Source: Lysobacter capsici (GTDB taxonomy: Bacteria; Pseudomonadota; Gammaproteobacteria; Xanthomonadales; Xanthomonadaceae). From it: a stretch of 64,000 bases of DNA. The notes under the pieces are model-generated. The model worked only from the letters and a program-made list of their open reading frames with translations, was not told the DNA's origin and ran no database searches. Location of the stretch: positions 5,890,001 through 5,954,000 of the forward strand of contig NZ_CP094357.1 in the NCBI RefSeq assembly GCF_014779555.2, written 5' to 3'. The position numbers and the translations under genes are program-made. Positions 14,261-47,984 of this stretch are shown here, piece after piece (positions within the stretch are counted from its first letter, which is position 1; each line of letters starts with the position of its first letter).

Positions 14261-17200
14261 ATGCCAAAGCGTTCATTGAGTGATATCGGCGCTCCGCAGC
14301 ACCCGGGGCAATTTGTGCGTGAGACATTCCTGACGCCCAGGAGGCTTTCGGTAGTCGCGGCCGCAAAGTTGGTCGGCGTCGGTAGACCCGCGTTGTCGAA
14401 CTTTTTGAACGGCCATGTGGCAGCGACACCAGAAATGGCCGCCAGGATCGAGGTTGCTTTTGGAGCGTCCGCAAAGAGCTTGTTAGACATGCAGGCGGCG
14501 TTCGACGCAGCTGGCCAGTCAAAGATTAATCCAGCAAATGCAATGCCCTACGTCGCGCCTTTCCTCGGCATCAGGGCGAACGAGATTGAGGCATGGGTGG
14601 AGCGAAACATCGGTGCACGAATTCGCTTGCCTGTGTTGTTACGGACACTCGTGAATTCAACTCAGAGAGATGCCACGAAAATAGATTTCCCTGGTAACGA
14701 TGACGCCGAACGTCCGGGCTGGGACGGTTTTGTAGAAGCTGGAGCTGCGACACCTTGGATTCCGGCCGGGAAATCGGGCTGGGAATTCGGTGCAAACAAG
14801 GACATCAATGACAAAGCGAACTCCGACTTCAAGAAAAGCGTAGCGAGCAACGCAAAAAGCGCGCGCGCCGAAATCGTTTTTATCTTTGTAACGCCGAGAT
14901 ACTGGCAAGGCAAAGCAGATTGGCTAAAAAAGGCTAGAGCTAAAGCTGAGTGGAAGGACGTGCGAGCGTACGACGCGGCAGATTTGGAGCAGTGGCTTGA
15001 GCAATCCATCGCAGCTCAAACTTGGTTCGCCAATGAAACCGGACGACCTTCGCGCGACGTTCATTCACTGGATAGCTGCTGGGATGCGTGGGCCAATGTC
15101 GCCACCCCATCCCTGGGCGAGTCCCTATTCAGCCCGGCTGTCGAAGGTGCAAAGCAGACCATCACCTCAAGGCTCGCAGGCAAGCCGACAGAGCCCATAG
15201 TGATTGCGGCGGACTCTGTCGACGAAGCGCTTGCGTTTCTCTCGCAGCTGTTTGGGGCAGCGGGCGGCGACGATCTGCAACGGTACCGAGACCGAGTGCT
15301 GGTGTTCAAAGAGCCCGGAGTCTTGCCGAAGCTGGCGCAGGGTACTAAGGACTTTATTGCTGTCGCTGTGAGCCGCGATGTCGAACGGGAGCTTGGCCCG
15401 ATATCGCGCTCTATGCATACGATCGTGATTTATCCACGCAACGCGACAAGCGTTTCCGCTCACGTTGTGCTTGAGCCTCTCAGCGTTGGTGCATTCACTG
15501 CTTCTTTAGAGAGCAGTGGATTCGACTCCGACGCAATTGCGCGATACAGCAAAGAATCAGGGCGATCACTCACTGTCTTACGACGCAGGCTCGCAAATGT
15601 TCCAGCGGTTCGAACGCCGGCATGGGCCGCCGACTCTGCGACGGCGTCAAGCCTCGTCCCATTTCTACTCAGTGGAGCATGGAGCGCGAAAAACGACGCT
15701 GACCAACGGATACTGATGGAGCTTGCGGCAGTCAAGTCGTACGATGACGTTGAGAAGATATGCCAGAGCCTTGCAAGCATTGATGATGCTCCGCTCTGGT
15801 CGGTAGGGGACTTCAGAGGTGTCGTCTCCAAGCTCGACTTGCTTTTCGCTGTGGCAGGCTCCCTCACTGCCTCGGACCTTAAGCGTTACTTCGAGCAGGC
15901 GAAAGTTGTGCTAGGTGAGGACGATCCGAAGCTAGATCTTCCAGAAGACGAGCGTTGGGCAGCAGCCATCCACAACAAGTCGCGCGAACATTCCGGCCCC
16001 CTCAGGCGCGGCGTAGCTGAGACACTCGTTCTCCTCGCCATTCACGGGAACGATCTTTTCTTAACGCGTCTCGGGTTCGATTGCGAAAGCGCCGTGTCTC
16101 GGCTGATAGAAGGATTATTGACGCCACTCAAGACGCGGACCTTGGAAGCAAACGATCGAGACCTGACTTCGTATGCAGAGGCTGCGCCCGAGAAGTTCCT
16201 TTCAATTATCGAAAAAGATCTGAGATCTGATCATCCGGAGACATACGATCTAATGCGCTCGTCTTCTGCAGGCGTTTTTGGGAGTCAGTGCCGGCGAAGC
16301 AGCATATTGTGGGCGCTTGAAGGCTTGGCCTGGAATCGCGCGACGATGCATCGTGCCGCCCTGATTCTTGCGCAGCTATCCCAGCTCGAAGTCAACGATA
16401 ACTGGACGAACAAGCCGATCAATTCGCTCAAATCCATCTTCCGCGCCTGGATGCCGCAAACCACAGCCGATCATGGCAGCAGAGTGCAAGTATTAAAGCT
16501 CCTCGCGGAGCGATACCCAGCGGTCGCGTGGCAAGTTTGTATGTCTCAACTGCAAGACGGATCGGACGTAGGCCACTATAACCATAGACCTGTTTGGAGA
16601 AACGACGCCCACGGTTTCGGTGAACCATTCAAGACGCGCGCTCCAATCAAAGCGTTCGTGTGTGAAGTTGTAGATATGGTTTTAGATTGGAGGGGCGGGT
16701 ACTCGCGGGAGATGCTGTGCGATCTGATCCAAAAAATTAGGTTCTTATCTCCGGAGCACGGCCGGCAAGTCTGGCGCCACGTAGCCGATTGGGTGGCAGA
16801 TGGCGCCACGGACATCGACAGAGCGCTAGTTCGAGAGAAGATTCGGGTGACCGCATTGTCGACCCGGGCCTCCAAGTGGGCAAACAAAGCAGGTCAGTCC
16901 TTAGATGTAGCTGCCGCTAAGGCGGCTTACGATGCGCTCGAGCCGACCGACCTTATCGTTCGGCATGGATGGTTGTTCCGTCAACACTGGATTGATGATT
17001 TCGCGGGTGCGGAAGATGCGGATTTGGACTATCAAAAGCGTGAAGAACGCATCGGCGAACTGCGGACTCAAGTGCTGCGTGAGATGTACGAACTTATGGG
17101 CACCGCGGGAGTCGTACAACTAGCCTGCGCCGGTAAAACGGCAGCTACCATCGGATACTTGATGGCGGAGCGCTTGCTGGAAGTTGACGATCTTCCTCCG

Positions 17201-18379
17201 TTTCTAACGGCGGTACTCACCGGCCACAATGACGAACACGCTAGCGCGAGAGGTGAGCTAATTTCTGGTGTCTTGAGAGCGATGCCTGATGACGATCGCC
17301 GACTCGTACTCAAGCAGCTAATCAAGGAGCTGCCAGAACTGGAAGTCGTACGCCTCCTGATGCTGGCGCCATTCAGGGCGGGCACCTGGTCGTTAGTCGA
17401 CGGGCTCGAAGAAGGGCATCGCGAAAATTACTGGAATCAGGTTAAACCTGATTTTGCGACAGAAAGGGAGATATCAGAGGCCGTCGAACGCCTTTTGGTC
17501 GCGCGACGGCCTCGCGCAGCGTTCTCCGTCGCACATCATTGCCTACGAGCCTTGGGGCCCGAGCTGTTGTACCGGGTCATGGCTGATATGGCAAAGGGTG
17601 GCAATGATCATCCAGGCCCGTACGATATCGACATTTACTCAGTGGAACAGGCCTTCGCGCTCATGAATAAAAGCCCGGAGCTGACGTTGGATCAAATGGC
17701 AAGTTTGGAGTTTGGCTACGTCGAAGCGCTCGCTCAACGCTGGCGAGGTAACGATGGTTACGGGATACCGAACCTCGAGAAGTACGTTGAGGCTCATCCG
17801 GAGTTCTACGTGCAGGCCGTCGTTTGGGCATATAAGCGTGACGACGACGCGGCCGATCCGCCTAATCTTGTGGTTGATCCTGCACAAGCACAGAACTTCG
17901 CCACACGTGGTTTCAAGCTCTTGGAAGGTATGCGCCGAATTCCAGGACAAGACGACCTTGGAGTACTTCAGCCCGAAAAGCTGGCAGCTTGGATTAGTGC
18001 TGTGCGTAATTCTTGTGGCGAGCTCGCACGCCTCGACATAGCGGATCTATGCATCGGCAAGCTTTTGTCGGCAGCTCCAACGGGAGAGGATGGAGTTTGG
18101 CCGTGCGAGCCAGTACGCCAGGTTATGGAGGACGTTCATTCTGAGCACCTGATGTCTGGCGCACACACAGGACTGTACAACTCTCGCGGCGCGACATGGC
18201 GAGGCGAAGGTGGGGGCCAAGAGCGTGAGCTGGCGATGAAGTATCGCGGATGGGCCGATGCACTCCAATATTCTCATCCCTTTGTGGCTTCGGAACTTCT
18301 AATCAACATGGCGAAAGGATATGAGCGTGAAGCCAGCCGCGAAGATACGGAAGCTATCGTTAATAGGCGTCTGCAATAA
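14261..18379 (+). CDS. 1372-aa protein with HigA-type HTH and possible nuclease-like domain
   Basis: Residues 14-82 form a HigA/VapI-type helix-turn-helix (PGQFVRETFLTP; AAKLVGVGRPALSNFLNG). Residues 140-260 hold GWDGFVEA (Asp154), SGWEFGANK (Glu175, Lys180), a beta strand EIVFIFVTP and YDAADLEQWLEQS; the acidic-Glu-x-Lys spacing resembles PD-(D/E)XK nucleases, but this is inference. About 1000 helical residues follow with no obvious P-loop, ending in a conserved-looking GLYNSRGATWRGEGGGQERE block. The ATG at 14261 has GGAG eight bases upstream and starts the HTH; the frame is open further upstream but without an RBS. Visibly lower GC than the core flanks. It is divergent from the GTPase pair. 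Confidence 0.75.
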   Translation: MPKRSLSDIGAPQHPGQFVRETFLTPRRLSVVAAAKLVGVGRPALSNFLNGHVAATPEMAARIEVAFGASAKSLLDMQAAFDAAGQSKINPANAMPYVAPFLGIRANEIEAWVERNIGARIRLPVLLRTLVNSTQRDATKIDFPGNDDAERPGWDGFVEAGAATPWIPAGKSGWEFGANKDINDKANSDFKKSVASNAKSARAEIVFIFVTPRYWQGKADWLKKARAKAEWKDVRAYDAADLEQWLEQSIAAQTWFANETGRPSRDVHSLDSCWDAWANVATPSLGESLFSPAVEGAKQTITSRLAGKPTEPIVIAADSVDEALAFLSQLFGAAGGDDLQRYRDRVLVFKEPGVLPKLAQGTKDFIAVAVSRDVERELGPISRSMHTIVIYPRNATSVSAHVVLEPLSVGAFTASLESSGFDSDAIARYSKESGRSLTVLRRRLANVPAVRTPAWAADSATASSLVPFLLSGAWSAKNDADQRILMELAAVKSYDDVEKICQSLASIDDAPLWSVGDFRGVVSKLDLLFAVAGSLTASDLKRYFEQAKVVLGEDDPKLDLPEDERWAAAIHNKSREHSGPLRRGVAETLVLLAIHGNDLFLTRLGFDCESAVSRLIEGLLTPLKTRTLEANDRDLTSYAEAAPEKFLSIIEKDLRSDHPETYDLMRSSSAGVFGSQCRRSSILWALEGLAWNRATMHRAALILAQLSQLEVNDNWTNKPINSLKSIFRAWMPQTTADHGSRVQVLKLLAERYPAVAWQVCMSQLQDGSDVGHYNHRPVWRNDAHGFGEPFKTRAPIKAFVCEVVDMVLDWRGGYSREMLCDLIQKIRFLSPEHGRQVWRHVADWVADGATDIDRALVREKIRVTALSTRASKWANKAGQSLDVAAAKAAYDALEPTDLIVRHGWLFRQHWIDDFAGAEDADLDYQKREERIGELRTQVLREMYELMGTAGVVQLACAGKTAATIGYLMAERLLEVDDLPPFLTAVLTGHNDEHASARGELISGVLRAMPDDDRRLVLKQLIKELPELEVVRLLMLAPFRAGTWSLVDGLEEGHRENYWNQVKPDFATEREISEAVERLLVARRPRAAFSVAHHCLRALGPELLYRVMADMAKGGNDHPGPYDIDIYSVEQAFALMNKSPELTLDQMASLEFGYVEALAQRWRGNDGYGIPNLEKYVEAHPEFYVQAVVWAYKRDDDAADPPNLVVDPAQAQNFATRGFKLLEGMRRIPGQDDLGVLQPEKLAAWISAVRNSCGELARLDIADLCIGKLLSAAPTGEDGVWPCEPVRQVMEDVHSEHLMSGAHTGLYNSRGATWRGEGGGQERELAMKYRGWADALQYSHPFVASELLINMAKGYEREASREDTEAIVNRRLQ

Positions 18380-42112: not shown

Positions 42113-42253
42113 TGGAGCGTGAGCCTCCACGCAGATGCACGAGGCGATGTGTTCGACTGCATCGAGTTGTTCTACAACCCCAAGCGTCGGCACAGTTACA
42201 ACGACGGCCTGTCGCCGATAGCGTTTGAAAAGCGGTACGCACTACACGGCTGA
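42113..42253 (+). pseudogene. IS3-family transposase C-terminal remnant
   Basis: Only the last 46 or so codons remain: DVFDCIELFYNPKRRHSYN and GLSPIAFEKRYALHG, followed by a stop. This is the typical C-terminus of IS3-family OrfB, containing the RRHS and SP motifs. The DDE core and OrfA are missing. It records a past insertion between the LysR operon and the signalling locus. Confidence 0.85.
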
Positions 42254-42403
42254 CTATGGTCTACAGAAAACTCGGCGATTCAATCATCGGCGACGGAAAC
42301 CCCCTTATCTTCGAAGGTTTCCGCGACAGGCACTGGACCAAAAAACCGGCTTGATTGCGTAGACGCCCCCTCAAAACCGGCAGCCAACCGGCGAGCCGGA
42401 CGA

Positions 42404-42751: not shown

Positions 42752-43031
42752 GTTGCACTGCTCCTTCTGGCATTCGATCAGCTTCGGACGAATCGGCCCT
42801 GGCGGCTGCACTGTGAGCGGCGCTTTTAAGCATTCGACGATCGTCCGGCGCCGCAAGCAGGCAAGGAACGTCGACCAGCGCTTGGCAGTGTGAAGCCCGT
42901 CAATGACGACGATTTTTTCTGGGCTAATGTGCCCAACGCGCATTACCGCCAAGGCCGTCAACTGTCGTAACTCTTCGGCCTTGTCCAAGCCGCTGTGTCG
43001 ATAGCAGATGCGTCAGCCAGCCCGGCGCCGT

Positions 43032-43274
43032 TCAGCCGTTTGAATTCGCAACGATCAGATCGACTATATCGTTGAGCGACGGATTTTTAGGGAACTGCAA
43101 TTCCTTAAACTCGATGCCAAACCGCTCCTCAACATCCATCATGAGATCGACCATTATTATCGAGTCGATGCCCAGTTCGCTTTGGGTCGTCGAAGCACTT
43201 ACGCTTTCCGGTTTCAGGTCGAACTTTTCAACTATCATGCTCTTGAGCTTATCCAGCATCTCGTCCCGCAGCAT
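43032..43274 (-). CDS. dedicated acyl carrier protein of the DSF-like locus
   Basis: An 80-aa acidic carrier protein. The phosphopantetheine site GIDSIIMVDLMM carries Ser38, with the family-typical acidic helix after it and ERFGIEFKEL later. Length and spacing match AcpP when started at the ATG at 43274; an ATG at 43295 would add seven residues and has no ribosome site. It starts only 44 bp from the divergent histidine kinase. It is unlinked to fatty-acid synthesis genes other than the nearby ketosynthase, so it probably serves the crotonase and ketosynthase of this locus rather than bulk lipid synthesis. Confidence 0.87.
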   Translation of the reverse strand: MLRDEMLDKLKSMIVEKFDLKPESVSASTTQSELGIDSIIMVDLMMDVEERFGIEFKELQFPKNPSLNDIVDLIVANSNG

Positions 43275-43318
43275 AAAAAAGCCCCCGTCTTTCATTCAGT
43301 GGCAGCAAGGTTAAAGGG

Positions 43319-45403
43319 ATGGATCAGGTAACGCCAGAGCAATTAAAAAAGAGTGTACAGGATCAGTCCTCGGTCAGGGTCAAACTCGGCGTGCCGGTGG
43401 CGCTCGCCACCATCGCCGTCAATTTATTCTCGCAATCCGCCGCCGAGGCTTCGTTTTCCGGAATCAGCGTACTTGCCGGTTATATATTTTACGCTCTGGC
43501 CACTTACGTCGTGGCGCGCCATCCGGGTCCTCTCTCGTGGCGTCACATCGCGATAGGGACCGCGGTACTCGACCCCGCCATTCTATCGGCGTGGCTTTAT
43601 TTCGAAGGCGAGGCGGCGATCCTGATCGTAGGCTTTTACCTCTTCACCATACTCGGGTTCGGCTTTCGCATCGGCCCGAAGATAATGCGATTCTGCCAGG
43701 CCATCTCCATCGGCTGTTTCGGCCTGGTACTCATGGGCTCGCCGATCTGGAGAGATAATCTGTTCTTCGGATTGTCTCACCTGATCCTGCTGCTTATCGT
43801 TCCGATGTACGCCGGATCGCTGATGCGCGACTTGCGCGCGGCGAAGGCTTATGCCGAGCGCGAGAGCAAGGCCAAAACACAGCTGCTCGCCAATGTCAGC
43901 CATGAACTGCGCACCCCGCTCACGGGCATCGTATCGGCCGCGCAGCTATTGGACAGCGAGAGCAACACCCCTGAAGCCAATCGGTTGGCAGCCACCATAC
44001 TCAAGCTGGCGTCTTCTCTCGACGCCGAGATCAGCCAACTCCTGGACTTGTCCAAACTCGGCATTCAACCTGCGGACGGCCCGCCGGTACCGTACGAGCT
44101 TGGTACCGTGATCCACACGATCGAAGTGGCGCTGACGGAAACCGCGGCAGCCAAAGGGGTCGAACTGAAGACGGAAATCTCCCCCGATATCGTTCGGCCC
44201 GTGCTGGGGCACCCTCATGAGCTGACGAGCATCCTCATGAATCTGGCGGGTAACGCCGTGAAGTTCACCCACACCGGCACGGTTACCATTCAAATCAACT
44301 TGAAGGCCGCCAACGAGCGCACTTACTCGCTCTCGTTCGTTGTCACCGACACCGGAATCGGCATCCCGCTGGAGCATCAGGAAAAGCTGTTCGAACCCTT
44401 CTACAGAATCGAGACCGGCGATCGCCGTCAGTATCGCGGAACCGGGCTGGGCACGACCATCGCGCGCGAACATGTGCGGCGGATGGGCGGTGAGCTGCTG
44501 GTGTCCAGCACCCCTGGCGAAGGCTCCACGTTCTGGTTCGAAATCGAACTGCCGATCGCCAGCTTGCCGGTCGTGCCGGTGGACAACCAGGCACCGCCCA
44601 TCCTTGCCCCCAAGCGCATCCTCGTGGCGGACGACAACGCCCTGAATCTGGAACTGCTGCAGCAAATGCTGGCGCGGGACGGTCACCTGGTAACCGCCGC
44701 CCACAACGGCAACGATGCGTTGAGCCAACTGGCGCTGGAGGATTTCGATGTCGTCATGCTCGATTTCAACATGGACGACCTGGACGGCCTTTCGGTCTTT
44801 CAGACCTACGCGATGGGCCGCCTGCATCCCGCGCCGACGTTCTTCGTCACCGCCGACACCTCGAGTTCGACCGCCGCGAAATTGAGCAAGGCGGGTGCGG
44901 CGGGCGTCGTATACAAGCCGCTGACATTCGACAAGCTACGCGGCGCGATCGCCTCGGTGTTTCCGAACGAGACGCCGACCGCACGCCCCGACGTCGCCGA
45001 TCGCGACGGGGCGCGACTGAGCGTCGTCCCCGTCGAGCACATCGATCCGGCGATCCTCGATCTGCTGCGCGAAATCAAGGACCAACCGGAGTTCCTGCAC
45101 AAGATCATCGGCGACGGCATCGCCGACCTGCGCGATCTTCTGAGCCAACTATCCGACGCCATCACCCATCGCGATCTCCATCTGGTCCATCACCGCGCTC
45201 ACGCCATGCGCGGTGTCGCGCTCAACATCGGAGCGGTCAGACTAGGCGCTCAATGCGAGCGCCTGATGGACATCCCCCTGGATCAACTCAGCGCATCCAG
45301 CGAACGCCTCAATGACGATTTGGTGTCCACGTGGAAGGAGGCGCTGCAAGCACTTGAAGAACTTCGCGCCCCCTTCGCCGGCCCCGCCCAGCCACCGGCC
45401 TGA
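43319..45403 (+). CDS. RpfC-like hybrid sensor histidine kinase with REC and Hpt
   Basis: A 694-aa inner-membrane kinase. Residues 20-170 contain about five to six hydrophobic helices. Residue order then is HisKA (ANVSHELRTPLTGI, His195), HATPase with GNAVKF, DTGIGIP and GTGLGTTIA, a receiver domain (ILVADDN, phospho-Asp482 in VVMLDFNM, Lys533), and a C-terminal Hpt domain with His628 (HRAHAMRGVALNIGA). This order and the GTGLGTTIA box are those of RpfC, the sensor of DSF fatty-acid signals. The output partner RpfG is not adjacent. It converges with the RpfF-like gene with only 5 bp between stop codons. Confidence 0.88.
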   Translation: MDQVTPEQLKKSVQDQSSVRVKLGVPVALATIAVNLFSQSAAEASFSGISVLAGYIFYALATYVVARHPGPLSWRHIAIGTAVLDPAILSAWLYFEGEAAILIVGFYLFTILGFGFRIGPKIMRFCQAISIGCFGLVLMGSPIWRDNLFFGLSHLILLLIVPMYAGSLMRDLRAAKAYAERESKAKTQLLANVSHELRTPLTGIVSAAQLLDSESNTPEANRLAATILKLASSLDAEISQLLDLSKLGIQPADGPPVPYELGTVIHTIEVALTETAAAKGVELKTEISPDIVRPVLGHPHELTSILMNLAGNAVKFTHTGTVTIQINLKAANERTYSLSFVVTDTGIGIPLEHQEKLFEPFYRIETGDRRQYRGTGLGTTIAREHVRRMGGELLVSSTPGEGSTFWFEIELPIASLPVVPVDNQAPPILAPKRILVADDNALNLELLQQMLARDGHLVTAAHNGNDALSQLALEDFDVVMLDFNMDDLDGLSVFQTYAMGRLHPAPTFFVTADTSSSTAAKLSKAGAAGVVYKPLTFDKLRGAIASVFPNETPTARPDVADRDGARLSVVPVEHIDPAILDLLREIKDQPEFLHKIIGDGIADLRDLLSQLSDAITHRDLHLVHHRAHAMRGVALNIGAVRLGAQCERLMDIPLDQLSASSERLNDDLVSTWKEALQALEELRAPFAGPAQPPA

Positions 45404-45408
45404 TCGAT

Positions 45409-46305
45409 TCATCCGCCGGCCACGGCATCCCGCGATTGCATCAGGATCAGCATTTCCATGGTGCGAATCTCCTCGGCGCTCAGACTCATGGCGGTTTCGA
45501 CCCAATCCTCGACGACCCTCACGCCTTCGTCGTAATTGAACGGAGCGGTCCTGTATCGGCTCGCCTGCACCTTCAACAAGGCCTTCTGCCTGCGCGAGTG
45601 CTCCGCGACGTATCTCTCCACCGCGCGCTCGCCTTTCCCGTCGGCGCATAGCTCGTCGACGATGCCCATTTCATACAACTCGGCGGCGGAGTAGATCCGT
45701 TTGTTCGTCATCATCTTCTCGGCCTGCCTCGCCCCCACCTTGCTGGCCAGCAGCCCCATGGCGCCCGTGCAGGGAAACAAGCCGAACATGATTTCGGGGA
45801 AGCCGAACGAGCTGCGCTCCTCGGCGATTACATAGTCGGTGCTCAGCACCATCTCGAATCCGCCGCCCAACGCGCGACCCTGCACGAGACTGATCGACGT
45901 ACTCTCGCCCTTGAGCCGCGTCGACCAACCGTGCATCAGGTCCAGGCAAGCCATCGAATACTGTCGCAGCCGCTTATCGTCGCGAGCCGCGATGCACGAG
46001 CGGAAGAATCGCAAGTCGCCGCCCACGCTGAAGTAGTCGGGGTGGGTCGACTGAATCACGGTGTACCGGGTAGGCAGCGCGGCCATGTCGCCGACCGGCC
46101 TGCGGATCGAATCCAGTACGCCCTGGAATTCGTCCACCAAGGCGGGAGTGAAGTTCTGCAGACCGGACTCCTGGTCCGGCGAGAAACGTACCCAAAGGAC
46201 ATTCGACGCCAGCCTTCTGTTTTCAGTCACTACGCGACGTGAAAACTGAATGGGCTGGACCGACGATGTGGACAGATAATTCTGCAAGACTGGCAAGGCA
46301 CTCAT
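45409..46305 (-). CDS. RpfF-like crotonase (DSF-type signal synthase)
   Basis: A 298-aa crotonase-fold enzyme. It aligns with RpfF: GRALGGGFEMVLS with Glu151 and FGFPEIMFGLFP with Glu171, the 20-residue spacing of the two catalytic glutamates of RpfF (141 and 161 in Xanthomonas), then GARQAEKMMTNKRIYSAAEL and the C-terminal VVEDWVETAMSLS, RTMEMLILMQSR. RpfF enzymes hydrate or dehydrate 3-hydroxyacyl-ACP and release cis-2-unsaturated fatty acids as signals. It is downstream of the ketosynthase (27-bp gap) in one transcript and converges with the RpfC-like gene. Product chain length cannot be inferred. Confidence 0.87.
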   Translation of the reverse strand: MSALPVLQNYLSTSSVQPIQFSRRVVTENRRLASNVLWVRFSPDQESGLQNFTPALVDEFQGVLDSIRRPVGDMAALPTRYTVIQSTHPDYFSVGGDLRFFRSCIAARDDKRLRQYSMACLDLMHGWSTRLKGESTSISLVQGRALGGGFEMVLSTDYVIAEERSSFGFPEIMFGLFPCTGAMGLLASKVGARQAEKMMTNKRIYSAAELYEMGIVDELCADGKGERAVERYVAEHSRRQKALLKVQASRYRTAPFNYDEGVRVVEDWVETAMSLSAEEIRTMEMLILMQSRDAVAGG

Positions 46306-46332
46306 GATTAAACCCTCGGGAGGTTGGCGTGG

Positions 46333-47577
46333 TTACACAGAAAGGCTGCGCTGTGTGCCGAGCACCAGAGCAGCGTTTGTTCCACCAAACCCGCAAGAGA
46401 AGCTAACTGCCAAGTCAATTCTGCAATCTGTGCGCGGAAGCTCTCCTACGTGATTTAGGCTACAACGTTCATCGACGACGCCGATGTTACCGCTCGCCGG
46501 CAACAACGACTCGTTCATTGCGACTACGGTGATAAGACATTCCATTGCGCTGGCCGCGCCGAGCAAATGTCCGTGGACGGATTTAGTCGAGCTGACCGCG
46601 GCCGAGGCTGGACCATCACCGAACACCTCCCTTATCGCCGTTGCTTCTATTACATCGCCGCCTTCCGTAGCGGTGGCATGTGCATTTACGTATCCAACGT
46701 CTTCAGCTTCTATTCCGGCGTCCCTCAACGCCGTTGTCAAACATTCGATCTGGCCGGCGCTGTCCGGCATTCCGATATGGTAGGCGTCGCATGAGACACC
46801 GTAGCCGCGCACATACCCGTGTATTTTCGCTCCGCGGCGCTCGGCCAGGTCGGCGGCTTCCAGCACCAGAAAAGCCGCGCCTTCGCCGAGCACCAGCCCG
46901 CTGCGATCCTTCGAGAACGGTCTGCACGAATGGCCCGGATCGTCGACACGGGGTTTTGACAACGCGCGCGTGCCATCGAAGACGGCGATCAGCGCCGCGG
47001 ACAGCGGCGCTTCCGCTCCGCCCGTGACGGCCACGTCCAAGTAGCCATCCGCAATGGCCCTCATCGCCTCGCCGATAGCCACGCCCGATGACGCGCACGC
47101 GCTCGCATGAGTTATCACCGGGCCGCGAATCTTGTGGCGGATCGCTACTTGGGCGGCGCCACTGTTGGCCATGATGGACATGGCGGTGAAAGGCCGGGAT
47201 TTATGCTTGCCGTTTAGCAGCGATTCCTCGAACCAATTCTGCAGGGACGCCATTCCGCCGTTGACGTTTCCATAGTAAACGCCCGCCCTGGAGCCAAAAC
47301 TCTCAAAGGTGTCCAGCCCGGCGTCAGCGATCGCGTCACCGGCCGCGATGATCGCCATTTCATGGCATCTATCCAGAAACGGCCGCTCGATATAACTGAA
47401 TCGCTCCGAGAACGTCCCTTTTACGGTACCCGCGACGTGTTGGCTCGGCAGCCGGGGGACGGTGATCAGCTCGATCCCCGTGGTCCCGGCCCGCAACGCG
47501 CCTGCCACCTCGGACACGGACAGACCGAGCGGACTGAGAACGCCCATACCTGTGATTGCAACTTGTCGCCTTTTCAT
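46333..47577 (-). CDS. FabF-type beta-ketoacyl-ACP synthase of the DSF-like locus
   Basis: A 414-aa condensing enzyme. The catalytic Cys161 is in HASACASSGVAIGE, His300 in VNAHATATEGGD, Lys332 and His337 in STKSVHGHLLGAA, so the C-H-H triad is intact. The usual HGT is changed to HAT. The family elongates acyl-ACP with malonyl-ACP. Here it is the first gene of a leftward unit with the RpfF-like gene, so it probably makes or extends the acyl-ACP that RpfF uses. The ATG at 47577 follows AGGGGGG. Codon choice shows more A/T-ending codons than the redox operons nearby. Confidence 0.88.
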   Translation of the reverse strand: MKRRQVAITGMGVLSPLGLSVSEVAGALRAGTTGIELITVPRLPSQHVAGTVKGTFSERFSYIERPFLDRCHEMAIIAAGDAIADAGLDTFESFGSRAGVYYGNVNGGMASLQNWFEESLLNGKHKSRPFTAMSIMANSGAAQVAIRHKIRGPVITHASACASSGVAIGEAMRAIADGYLDVAVTGGAEAPLSAALIAVFDGTRALSKPRVDDPGHSCRPFSKDRSGLVLGEGAAFLVLEAADLAERRGAKIHGYVRGYGVSCDAYHIGMPDSAGQIECLTTALRDAGIEAEDVGYVNAHATATEGGDVIEATAIREVFGDGPASAAVSSTKSVHGHLLGAASAMECLITVVAMNESLLPASGNIGVVDERCSLNHVGELPRTDCRIDLAVSFSCGFGGTNAALVLGTQRSLSV

Positions 47578-47984
47578 CGAGCCCCCCTGAGCCGACCATT
47601 TCGACGGCCAGGGCGCAGGAAGCGCCCTACTCGGGCCGTCGCTATGCCACGTACATCACAGTAGGCGTCCTTTTTGGCGTTTTGCAACCATGGATAAGCA
47701 CCAACCGACTCGCCCTCGAACCGAGCAGGCGTTTTCACCAGCGTCCGTCGCGAGACCAGCCGCGCCCGGCCCCAATCACCCCGCGCGTGCCGGCATCACC
47801 GGCCTGCAGAAATCGGTTGCAAGGCATCGGAAGGATCTGCCGCCCATTGACGGCGTCGTCCTGTCTCCAGGCTCCGCCGAGCGACACCGTATTCAGGAAA
47901 TTCTCCAGCGCGCGGGGCACACGATTTTCTCGACGGGCGACTCGGGGGAGGCGACCACATGGCACAGCGCGAGTCGAGCCGATC
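47578..47984. other. upstream region of the signalling operon, no clear gene
   Basis: The start of a gap that runs to 48303. Open frames exist on both strands over 47690-48265 but conflict. The minus-strand frame is continuous with the phage-tail remnant described next; no other domain is seen. The ketosynthase promoter must lie in the first 150 bp. Confidence 0.45.

Follow-up and report, generated by a model that had tools for sequence, protein, structure and literature searches.

We examined a 64,000-nucleotide stretch of Lysobacter capsici DNA (NCBI RefSeq assembly GCF_014779555.2, contig NZ_CP094357.1, positions 5,890,001 to 5,954,000; hereafter the window), which belongs to a genome of 6.24 Mb in one contig (G000). 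It carries a cassette of four genes whose products resemble the synthase and the sensor of the rpf system for diffusible signal factor (DSF), accompanied by a ketosynthase (KS) and an acyl carrier protein (ACP). The products are marked here with an asterisk and are encoded as follows:

43032-43295, minus strand: ACP*, acyl carrier protein of 87 aa with attachment serine S45 (PF00550, 46.2 bits, cut-off 20.8)
43319-45403, plus strand: HK*, RpfC-type hybrid sensor kinase (HK) of 694 aa, with an N-terminal hydrophobic, putatively membrane-embedded region followed by HisKA (H195), HATPase, REC (D482) and Hpt (H628)
43319-43384, plus strand: sensor tip of HK*, the N-terminal 22 or so aa as delimited by alignment with RpfC
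45409-46305, minus strand: RpfF*, RpfF-type crotonase of 298 aa with E151 and E171 intact
46333-47577, minus strand: KS*, FabF-type ketosynthase of 414 aa with C161, H300, K332 and H337

Pfam domains were PP-binding in ACP*, HisKA, HATPase_c, Response_reg and Hpt in HK*, ECH_1 in RpfF* and ketoacyl-synt N and C in KS*. A first-pass annotation had described an RpfF-like crotonase with both catalytic glutamates, an RpfC-like hybrid kinase with the same domain order, an ACP and a FabF-type KS with an intact triad, and this gene content holds: the crotonase reading frame is there with E151 and E171, the kinase reads HisKA-HATPase-REC-Hpt, and the catalytic residues of KS* and S45 of ACP* are kept. 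ACP* and HK* are divergent, with 23 bp between their listed start codons (43295-43319), and ACP* lies on the strand of KS* and RpfF*, HK* intervening on the opposite one. The same order recurs in the loci of the family that have HK* and ACP*, while in the Rudaea, Dokdonella and Thiomonas loci, for example, ACP and KS stand in line. The arrangement of ACP* and KS*-RpfF* around an opposite-strand HK* is possibly a non-contiguous operon. A promoter and terminator scan of the cassette gave nothing above shuffled sequences, and an Rfam search gave no match.

The crotonase was compared with known DSF synthases by sequence, structure and phylogeny. E151 and E171 are invariant in the 19 RpfF* of the family, in 67/67 proteins of a wider RpfF* set and in 35/35 canonical RpfF. 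RpfF* matched NCBIfam model PRK08788 (NF006452) with 268 bits, above the curated cut-off of 177, and the equivalog SgnlFctrSynRpfF with 181.7 bits (cut-off 550); three canonical RpfF from the family, including two from the genus of the window, did not reach this cut-off in the same scan either (328, 347 and 510 bits), and it was dropped as a test. The best sequence relative among solved structures is RpfF (3m6m). An AlphaFold2 model of RpfF* (mean predicted local distance difference test, pLDDT, 78.7) had synthases of DSF or of the Burkholderia-type signal BDSF as its best PDB matches, with the RpfF entries 3m6n/3m6m first by E-value (template modelling score, TM, 0.77-0.79) and 6dgn (0.81) and 5fus (0.79-0.80) equally near by TM. 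Local identity to 35 canonical RpfF is 34-43%. In a maximum-likelihood tree of 78 proteins these 35, drawn from across the class, formed one clade (99/96) and all 39 included RpfF* fell outside it, the 17 family members among them making a single clade (100/99). The tree took 39 of the 67 RpfF* (G369 and G308 are absent, and L158, L177 and L183 were dropped as their frame was not recovered), and its bootstrap was not fully settled. A distant enoyl-CoA hydratase outgroup roots it within RpfF*, so that our claim is limited to a position outside the canonical RpfF clade; RpfF* is monophyletic only if the root falls outside it. All 19 RpfF* of the family have C179 and M183, where canonical RpfF carry Gly (35/35) and Tyr (34/35); as a later scan of named genomes used the peptides FGLFPCTG and L[VI]QGRALGG, its counts of C179 are biased, and the unbiased count is 19/19. 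The structural match and the tree reject an ordinary enoyl-CoA hydratase as the identity of RpfF*. A further PRK08788 crotonase (235 bits) was seen in another genome (G032, L041 9060-9914); in the tree its branch is long and lies next to the clade of canonical RpfF, and its gene sits in a mostly one-strand run of genes with a KS-like gene (17134-18372; 34% over 208 aa to KS*).

HK* is 28-29% identical to RpfC with the same domain order, and a quick tree separated HK* (50 proteins) fully from RpfC (7 proteins). The phosphorelay sites are retained, H195 and D482 in 58/58 HK*, H628 in 57/58 and each in 7/7 RpfC. The tip of the sensor differs. In Xanthomonas campestris RpfC, residues R15, D17, S18, E19 and Q22 of the 22-residue tip are required for DSF sensing (PMC5391125). 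All five are found in 7/7 RpfC, but among the 58 HK* we counted R15 in 5, D17 in 2, S18 in 11, E19 in none and Q22 in 57, and 57 of the 58 keep at most two of them. The tip of the window's HK* keeps the equivalents of Ser18 and Gln22 and has Leu for R15, Lys for D17 and Val for E19. Judged by its sequence, HK* has the phosphorelay architecture of RpfC but is without most of the tip residues required in RpfC for DSF sensing.

Residue conservation extends to the two chain-building proteins. Among 63 KS* homologues C161 is present in 62, with a gap in the remaining one, and H300, K332 and H337 in all. KS* scored 378 bits against the FabF model TIGR03150, below its cut-off of 493.75. It is 38% identical to the other FabF-like gene of the genome (G000:C1:3889223), and in 20 genomes of the genus, its own included, a counterpart (96%) was found in Lysobacter sp. 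Root690 (G003) only, the best match elsewhere being at most 41%; a duplicate of the housekeeping FabF was rejected on that identity and on the occurrence in just 2/20 genomes. The attachment serine S45 of ACP* is present in 55/55 homologues, and ACP* matches ten NCBIfam ACP models, under the cut-off of every one.

In order to place the cassette within the signalling equipment of its host, the whole genome was searched. Nine ECH_1 matches were found, of which RpfF* was the sole RpfF-type protein, the next best match to it being 32% identical over partial length. The sole HD_5 match is the RpfG orthologue (>99%) at 2.68 Mb, about 3 Mb from the cassette, and rpfG and rpfB are both intact at this canonical site. 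Between them lie remains: directly after rpfG come codons 1-26 of rpfC (77% identity), then, convergent, codons 1-34 of rpfF (68%), and then rpfB. The rpfC stub has an early in-frame stop, and the canonical sensor motif RPDSEHG can still be read in it. G003 likewise has stubs (rpfF 34 codons, 74%; rpfC about 12 codons), while five comparison genomes (G001, G007, G015, G027 and G032) have canonical rpfC and rpfF beside rpfG. The stubs between rpfG and rpfB indicate that canonical rpfC and rpfF were once present and were lost through internal deletion. The first-pass annotation had rightly found rpfB and rpfG missing at the cassette, where the rpfB-rpfF-rpfC-rpfG adjacency of canonical clusters is absent, and had called the locus a second, self-contained DSF system. 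Both adjectives have to be given up: no other RpfF-type protein was found in the genome, and RpfG is encoded about 3 Mb off. The canonical cluster that it proposed to look for elsewhere thus exists as rpfG and rpfB, but with rpfC and rpfF reduced to stubs. Nor is the cassette merely a rearranged primary rpf locus, because RpfF* belongs to a different lineage (34-43% identity, outside the canonical clade); a simple relocation of the primary pair as RpfF*/HK* was rejected on this ground and because the old pair left its stubs in place.

We then surveyed 395 genomes of the family, sampled from a larger group and with at most six candidates scored in each, so that misses are no proof of absence. 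An RpfF-type match at E <= 1e-30 was obtained in 309/395. Nineteen genomes, the window's own included, carry the cassette with scores of about 302 bits or more, separated by a clean gap from the next score (172 bits). Within these 19 loci KS* is present in 19 and ACP* in 18 (one being at a contig end), and HK* is intact in 15, split in one (G308, L057), absent in two (G369 and G381) and off the contig in one; an HK match at L056 (39 bits, contig end) is false and was excluded. The two loci devoid of HK* (L064 and L066) read KS-RpfF*-ACP, and both genomes retain canonical rpfF and rpfC. In 8/19 carriers (G266, G205, G189, G308, G225, G130, G103 and G250) the cassette occupies the interval between rpfG and rpfB in which rpfF/rpfC would stand, the rpf site of G189 being seen on the rpfG side only, up to the contig end. 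In G027 cassette and canonical rpfF/rpfC stand together in one rpf cluster, and in the remaining 10/19 the cassette lies away from the rpf site, in G068 at a distance of only 28 kb. Canonical RpfF was unmatched (E <= 1e-30) in 13/19 carriers, and 86/376 non-carriers had no RpfF-type match; lack of such a match was associated with carriage of the cassette (Fisher p = 5e-5, with relatedness ignored, the genomes not being independent). The rpf site was read directly in the 13 cassette-only genomes. Five of them have the cassette elsewhere: G000 and G003 keep stubs at the rpf site, G285 has neither gene, and G068 and G271 show partial remains. In G068 (L150, Lysobacter xinjiangensis) rpfC is one open frame (583 codons read) from which the central kinase portion is gone, and there is no rpfF. 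In G271 (L151, Pseudoxanthomonas koreensis) a full-length canonical rpfC stands beside rpfG, canonical rpfF is gone and the cassette is present with its own HK*; this canonical rpfC is possibly an eavesdropping receptor.

These placements bear on whether the cassette is concerned with signalling at all. The crotonase could instead act as a general thioesterase/dehydratase of acyl-ACP in a small pathway for fatty acids or lipids, and the kinase could monitor the state of membrane lipids, with no communication between cells. A KS and an ACP are typical of lipid-modifying clusters, and the NCBIfam label of RpfF* merely reads 'crotonase/enoyl-CoA hydratase family protein' (PRK08788). RpfF itself makes DSF-family signals from 3-hydroxyacyl-ACP by dehydratase and thioesterase activity, the fatty-acid elongation cycle being required (PMC4542539), so its thioesterase activity also fits such an enzyme. 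We hold this explanation to be quite improbable, since the nearest solved structures are DSF/BDSF synthases, the cassette substitutes for rpfF/rpfC at the rpf site, and the kinase has the domain order of RpfC and converges with the synthase as rpfC does with rpfF.

A scan of named genomes yielded 70 loci, of which 66 were retained, L139-L142 being dropped as weak matches to ordinary crotonases. Carriers include Lysobacter sp. Root690 (93%), L. xinjiangensis, Luteimonas, Pseudoxanthomonas, Dokdonella, Rudaea, Noviherbaspirillum, Thiomonas and many metagenome bins, and thus beta- as well as gammaproteobacteria; these loci overlap in organisms with the family genomes and are not independent of them. 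With the window added and partial genes at contig ends counted, the crotonase has KS as a neighbour in 63/67 loci, HK in 60/67 and ACP in 55/67, an association far beyond chance. The four loci without KS all have contigs of 3.7-8.0 kb. Two of the seven HK misses are true absences (L084 and L125) and five are on short or cut contigs, while some of the twelve ACP misses (e.g. L093, L104 and L127) are on contigs of at least 10 kb and are possibly true or below detection. Pairwise distances in quick trees agreed closely for RpfF* and HK* (rho 0.905), RpfF* and KS* (0.829) and HK* and KS* (0.931), with a null maximum of 0.18, in 50 loci (those with intact genes, 56/67, less 6 near-duplicates), as expected for genes travelling together. 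Of what the first-pass annotation had proposed, a distinct system survives in the form of a separate lineage of synthase and sensor, accompanied by a KS and an ACP of its own and altered at the sensor tip, though neither second nor self-contained; the two comparisons it had suggested point the same way, the phylogeny by setting RpfF* apart from both the canonical clade and ordinary hydratases, and the co-occurrence of the four genes by the neighbour counts just given. In two proteobacterial metagenome bins (L114 and L137) we saw two KS-RpfF* pairs and one HK* each, possibly tandem signal synthases.

The flanks of these loci also inform on the output of the phosphorelay. A full-length rpfG homologue (>=250 bits) is found in the retrieved flanks of 35/66 named loci. 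Two loci from metagenome bins, L095 (Rudaea) and L108 (Dokdonella), have rpfG on one side of the cassette and rpfB on the other, and their ACP gene precedes KS. The cassette might alternatively use a phosphorelay output of its own rather than RpfG and form a separate quorum-sensing channel. There is no rpfG at the window locus, 31/66 named loci have no rpfG homologue of at least 250 bits in their flanks, many of the contigs being short, and canonical RpfF is also kept in 6/19 family genomes, one of which (G027) has the whole canonical set. We nevertheless regard an output of its own as unlikely: the cassette stands at the rpf site beside rpfG in 8/19 family genomes, rpfG accompanies it in the 35 named loci, and the window locus showed no other response regulator dedicated to the cassette.

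The surroundings of the cassette in the window suggest how it may have arrived. Two further features are relevant:

42886-47943, no strand: block of 5.06 kb shared with Lysobacter sp. Root690 (G003), 86.6% DNA identity by blastn
42137-42282, no strand: insertion-element remnant of 146 bp, one end only, left of the shared block and outside the signal system

As the block is common to the window and G003 while the flanks differ, it is likely the unit of transfer. In G003 a phage-type integrase gene (L038 6008-7231) ends at the border of the shared block. In G007 a 1235-bp element with an open reading frame for HTH_21 and rve domains has an end to which the remnant is 87.7% identical; G007 has 13 listed matches to that end, the three that were read being full-length (1235-1239 bp), and the window's own genome has a single copy. 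The remnant, presumably of IS3 type, is a mark of mobility at the left of the block.

Divergent rpfF and rpfC genes have been reported before in this species. One study called rpfC and rpfF absent from L. capsici 55 (PMC4657364). In L. capsici AZ78 an rpfF and an rpfC (AZ78_3297/AZ78_3298), 35% and 31% identical to those of L. enzymogenes, are distant from rpfG/rpfB, and a Xanthomonas DSF reporter responds to this strain (PMC8416617). With the same divergence from L. enzymogenes and the same separation from rpfG/rpfB, as described there, the AZ78 pair is very probably the same kind of locus as that of the window, a conclusion drawn from the description and not from the AZ78 sequence. That study treats the pair as ordinary rpfF/rpfC, and its main text mentions neither oxoacyl nor acyl carrier (PMC8416617). 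Our literature search, mainly of open-access texts without supplements, found no account of a KS/ACP pair belonging to a DSF locus, of the stubs or of a changed sensor. The system is therefore partly known, the bundling with KS/ACP, the stubs and the altered sensor being the added part. We know of no earlier case of a DSF-type synthase bundled with its own ketosynthase and ACP.

Several known systems share some of these traits. Canonical rpf loci (rpfB-rpfF / rpfG-rpfC in Xanthomonas and L. enzymogenes) have the crotonase with its glutamate pair and, convergent with it, a hybrid kinase whose domain order and phospho-sites are those of HK*; the cassette differs in its own KS and ACP, in having mostly lost the DSF-essential residues and, in the window's genome, in being unlinked from rpfG/rpfB. 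The alleles rpf-1 and rpf-2 of Stenotrophomonas maltophilia are both, we assume, of canonical type. Like the cassette they are differing rpfF/rpfC alleles at the rpf site, probably exchanged horizontally, but no KS or ACP is described with them in the accessible part of the report (PMC4517397), and the cassette is a separate, deeper lineage. FabG2 of X. campestris resembles KS* and ACP* as a fatty-acid-synthesis enzyme that stands beside a housekeeping one and feeds DSF production; it is a 3-oxoacyl-ACP reductase (PMC5941067), whereas the cassette builds a KS and an ACP into the signal locus. The BDSF synthases Burkholderia DfsA and Cronobacter RpfF share the crotonase fold of RpfF* (5fus, 6dgn), but the Cronobacter entry 6dgn pairs, by its title, the synthase with RpfR, whereas the cassette has an RpfC-type kinase. 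RpfR is a PAS-GGDEF-EAL protein and not a kinase of the RpfC type. A homologue on a Methylobacterium plasmid adjoins an EAL protein, with no KS/ACP annotated around it in an incomplete gene table.

The precedent of Stenotrophomonas raises the question of whether the cassette does anything new. It could make ordinary DSF or BDSF and be equivalent to canonical rpfF/rpfC, KS* and ACP* only boosting supply, in a neutral exchange of alleles such as that of rpf-1 and rpf-2. The AZ78 reporter result agrees with this, as do the invariant catalytic glutamates of RpfF*, the unchanged RpfG and the horizontal exchange proposed at rpfF/rpfC in Stenotrophomonas (PMC4517397). However, of the five sensor residues essential for DSF only one is generally kept in HK*, KS and ACP are retained across beta- and gammaproteobacterial hosts, and the clade-specific C179 and M183 lie near E171, in sequence if not necessarily in the pocket. 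We regard an ordinary signal as a serious contender, if somewhat short of an even chance. It is possible that the signal is chemically different from DSF, which the changed HK* tip and the dedicated KS/ACP favour; the AZ78 bioassay argues instead for at least an overlap.

Taken together, the separate lineage of RpfF* and HK*, its linkage to KS* and ACP*, its placement at the rpf site in other genomes, and the stubs beside intact rpfG and rpfB suggest that the cassette is probably the only DSF-type signal module found in this genome, an alternative rpfF/rpfC serving in place of the canonical pair that was lost. Each biochemical step that we propose for it is modelled on RpfF/RpfC/RpfG. KS* would elongate an acyl chain on the dedicated ACP* and, with FabG and other housekeeping enzymes, yield a 3-hydroxyacyl-ACP, which RpfF* would dehydrate and hydrolyse to a free 2-unsaturated fatty acid. 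This acid would diffuse and reach HK*, which would detect it with a membrane-proximal tip that differs from the tip of RpfC. Phosphate would pass from H195 to D482 and H628 and on to the resident RpfG about 3 Mb away, which in the absence of an RpfG at the cassette is most likely used in trans, and whose HD-GYP domain would lower cyclic di-GMP. The dedicated KS* and ACP* may set chain length or supply and insulate signal making from general fatty-acid synthesis.

Several observations weigh against this replacement. Signalling from HK* to RpfG is assumed, and the RpfG of G000 is near identical to that of G001, where RpfC is canonical, so that no co-adaptation is visible. HK* is not always needed, being absent in G369 and G381 and split in G308; replacement is not a universal rule either, as canonical RpfF is kept in 6/19 carriers. 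One named locus (L129) has no KS although HK and crotonase adjoin on the contig, and the agreement of the trees would also be explained by simple linkage. Finally, the activity of AZ78 on the Xanthomonas reporter favours overlap with classical DSF (PMC8416617).

A bolder extension of the replacement reading is that the cassette forms its own DSF-like quorum-sensing channel, in which the dedicated KS and ACP would give RpfF* a chain outside the repertoire of canonical RpfF, matched by the tip of HK*, and lineages would switch dialect by insertion of the cassette and subsequent deletion of rpfC/rpfF, with RpfG as the common output. We put this forward tentatively, as rather doubtful at present. 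If it is true, G027, with both sets in one rpf cluster, is an intermediate.

Signal systems must change synthase and receptor together. Here a lost pair (the stubs), a replacement pair and an apparent intermediate (G027) can all be read from genomes, which makes the switching of signal dialects directly testable. The cassette may explain the report of L. capsici 55 as a strain without rpfC and rpfF. Predictions of cross-talk made from canonical RpfF/RpfC could mislead in Lysobacter, Luteimonas, Pseudoxanthomonas, Dokdonella, Noviherbaspirillum and Thiomonas, and in the soil bacterium of the window a different signal may drive the same response.

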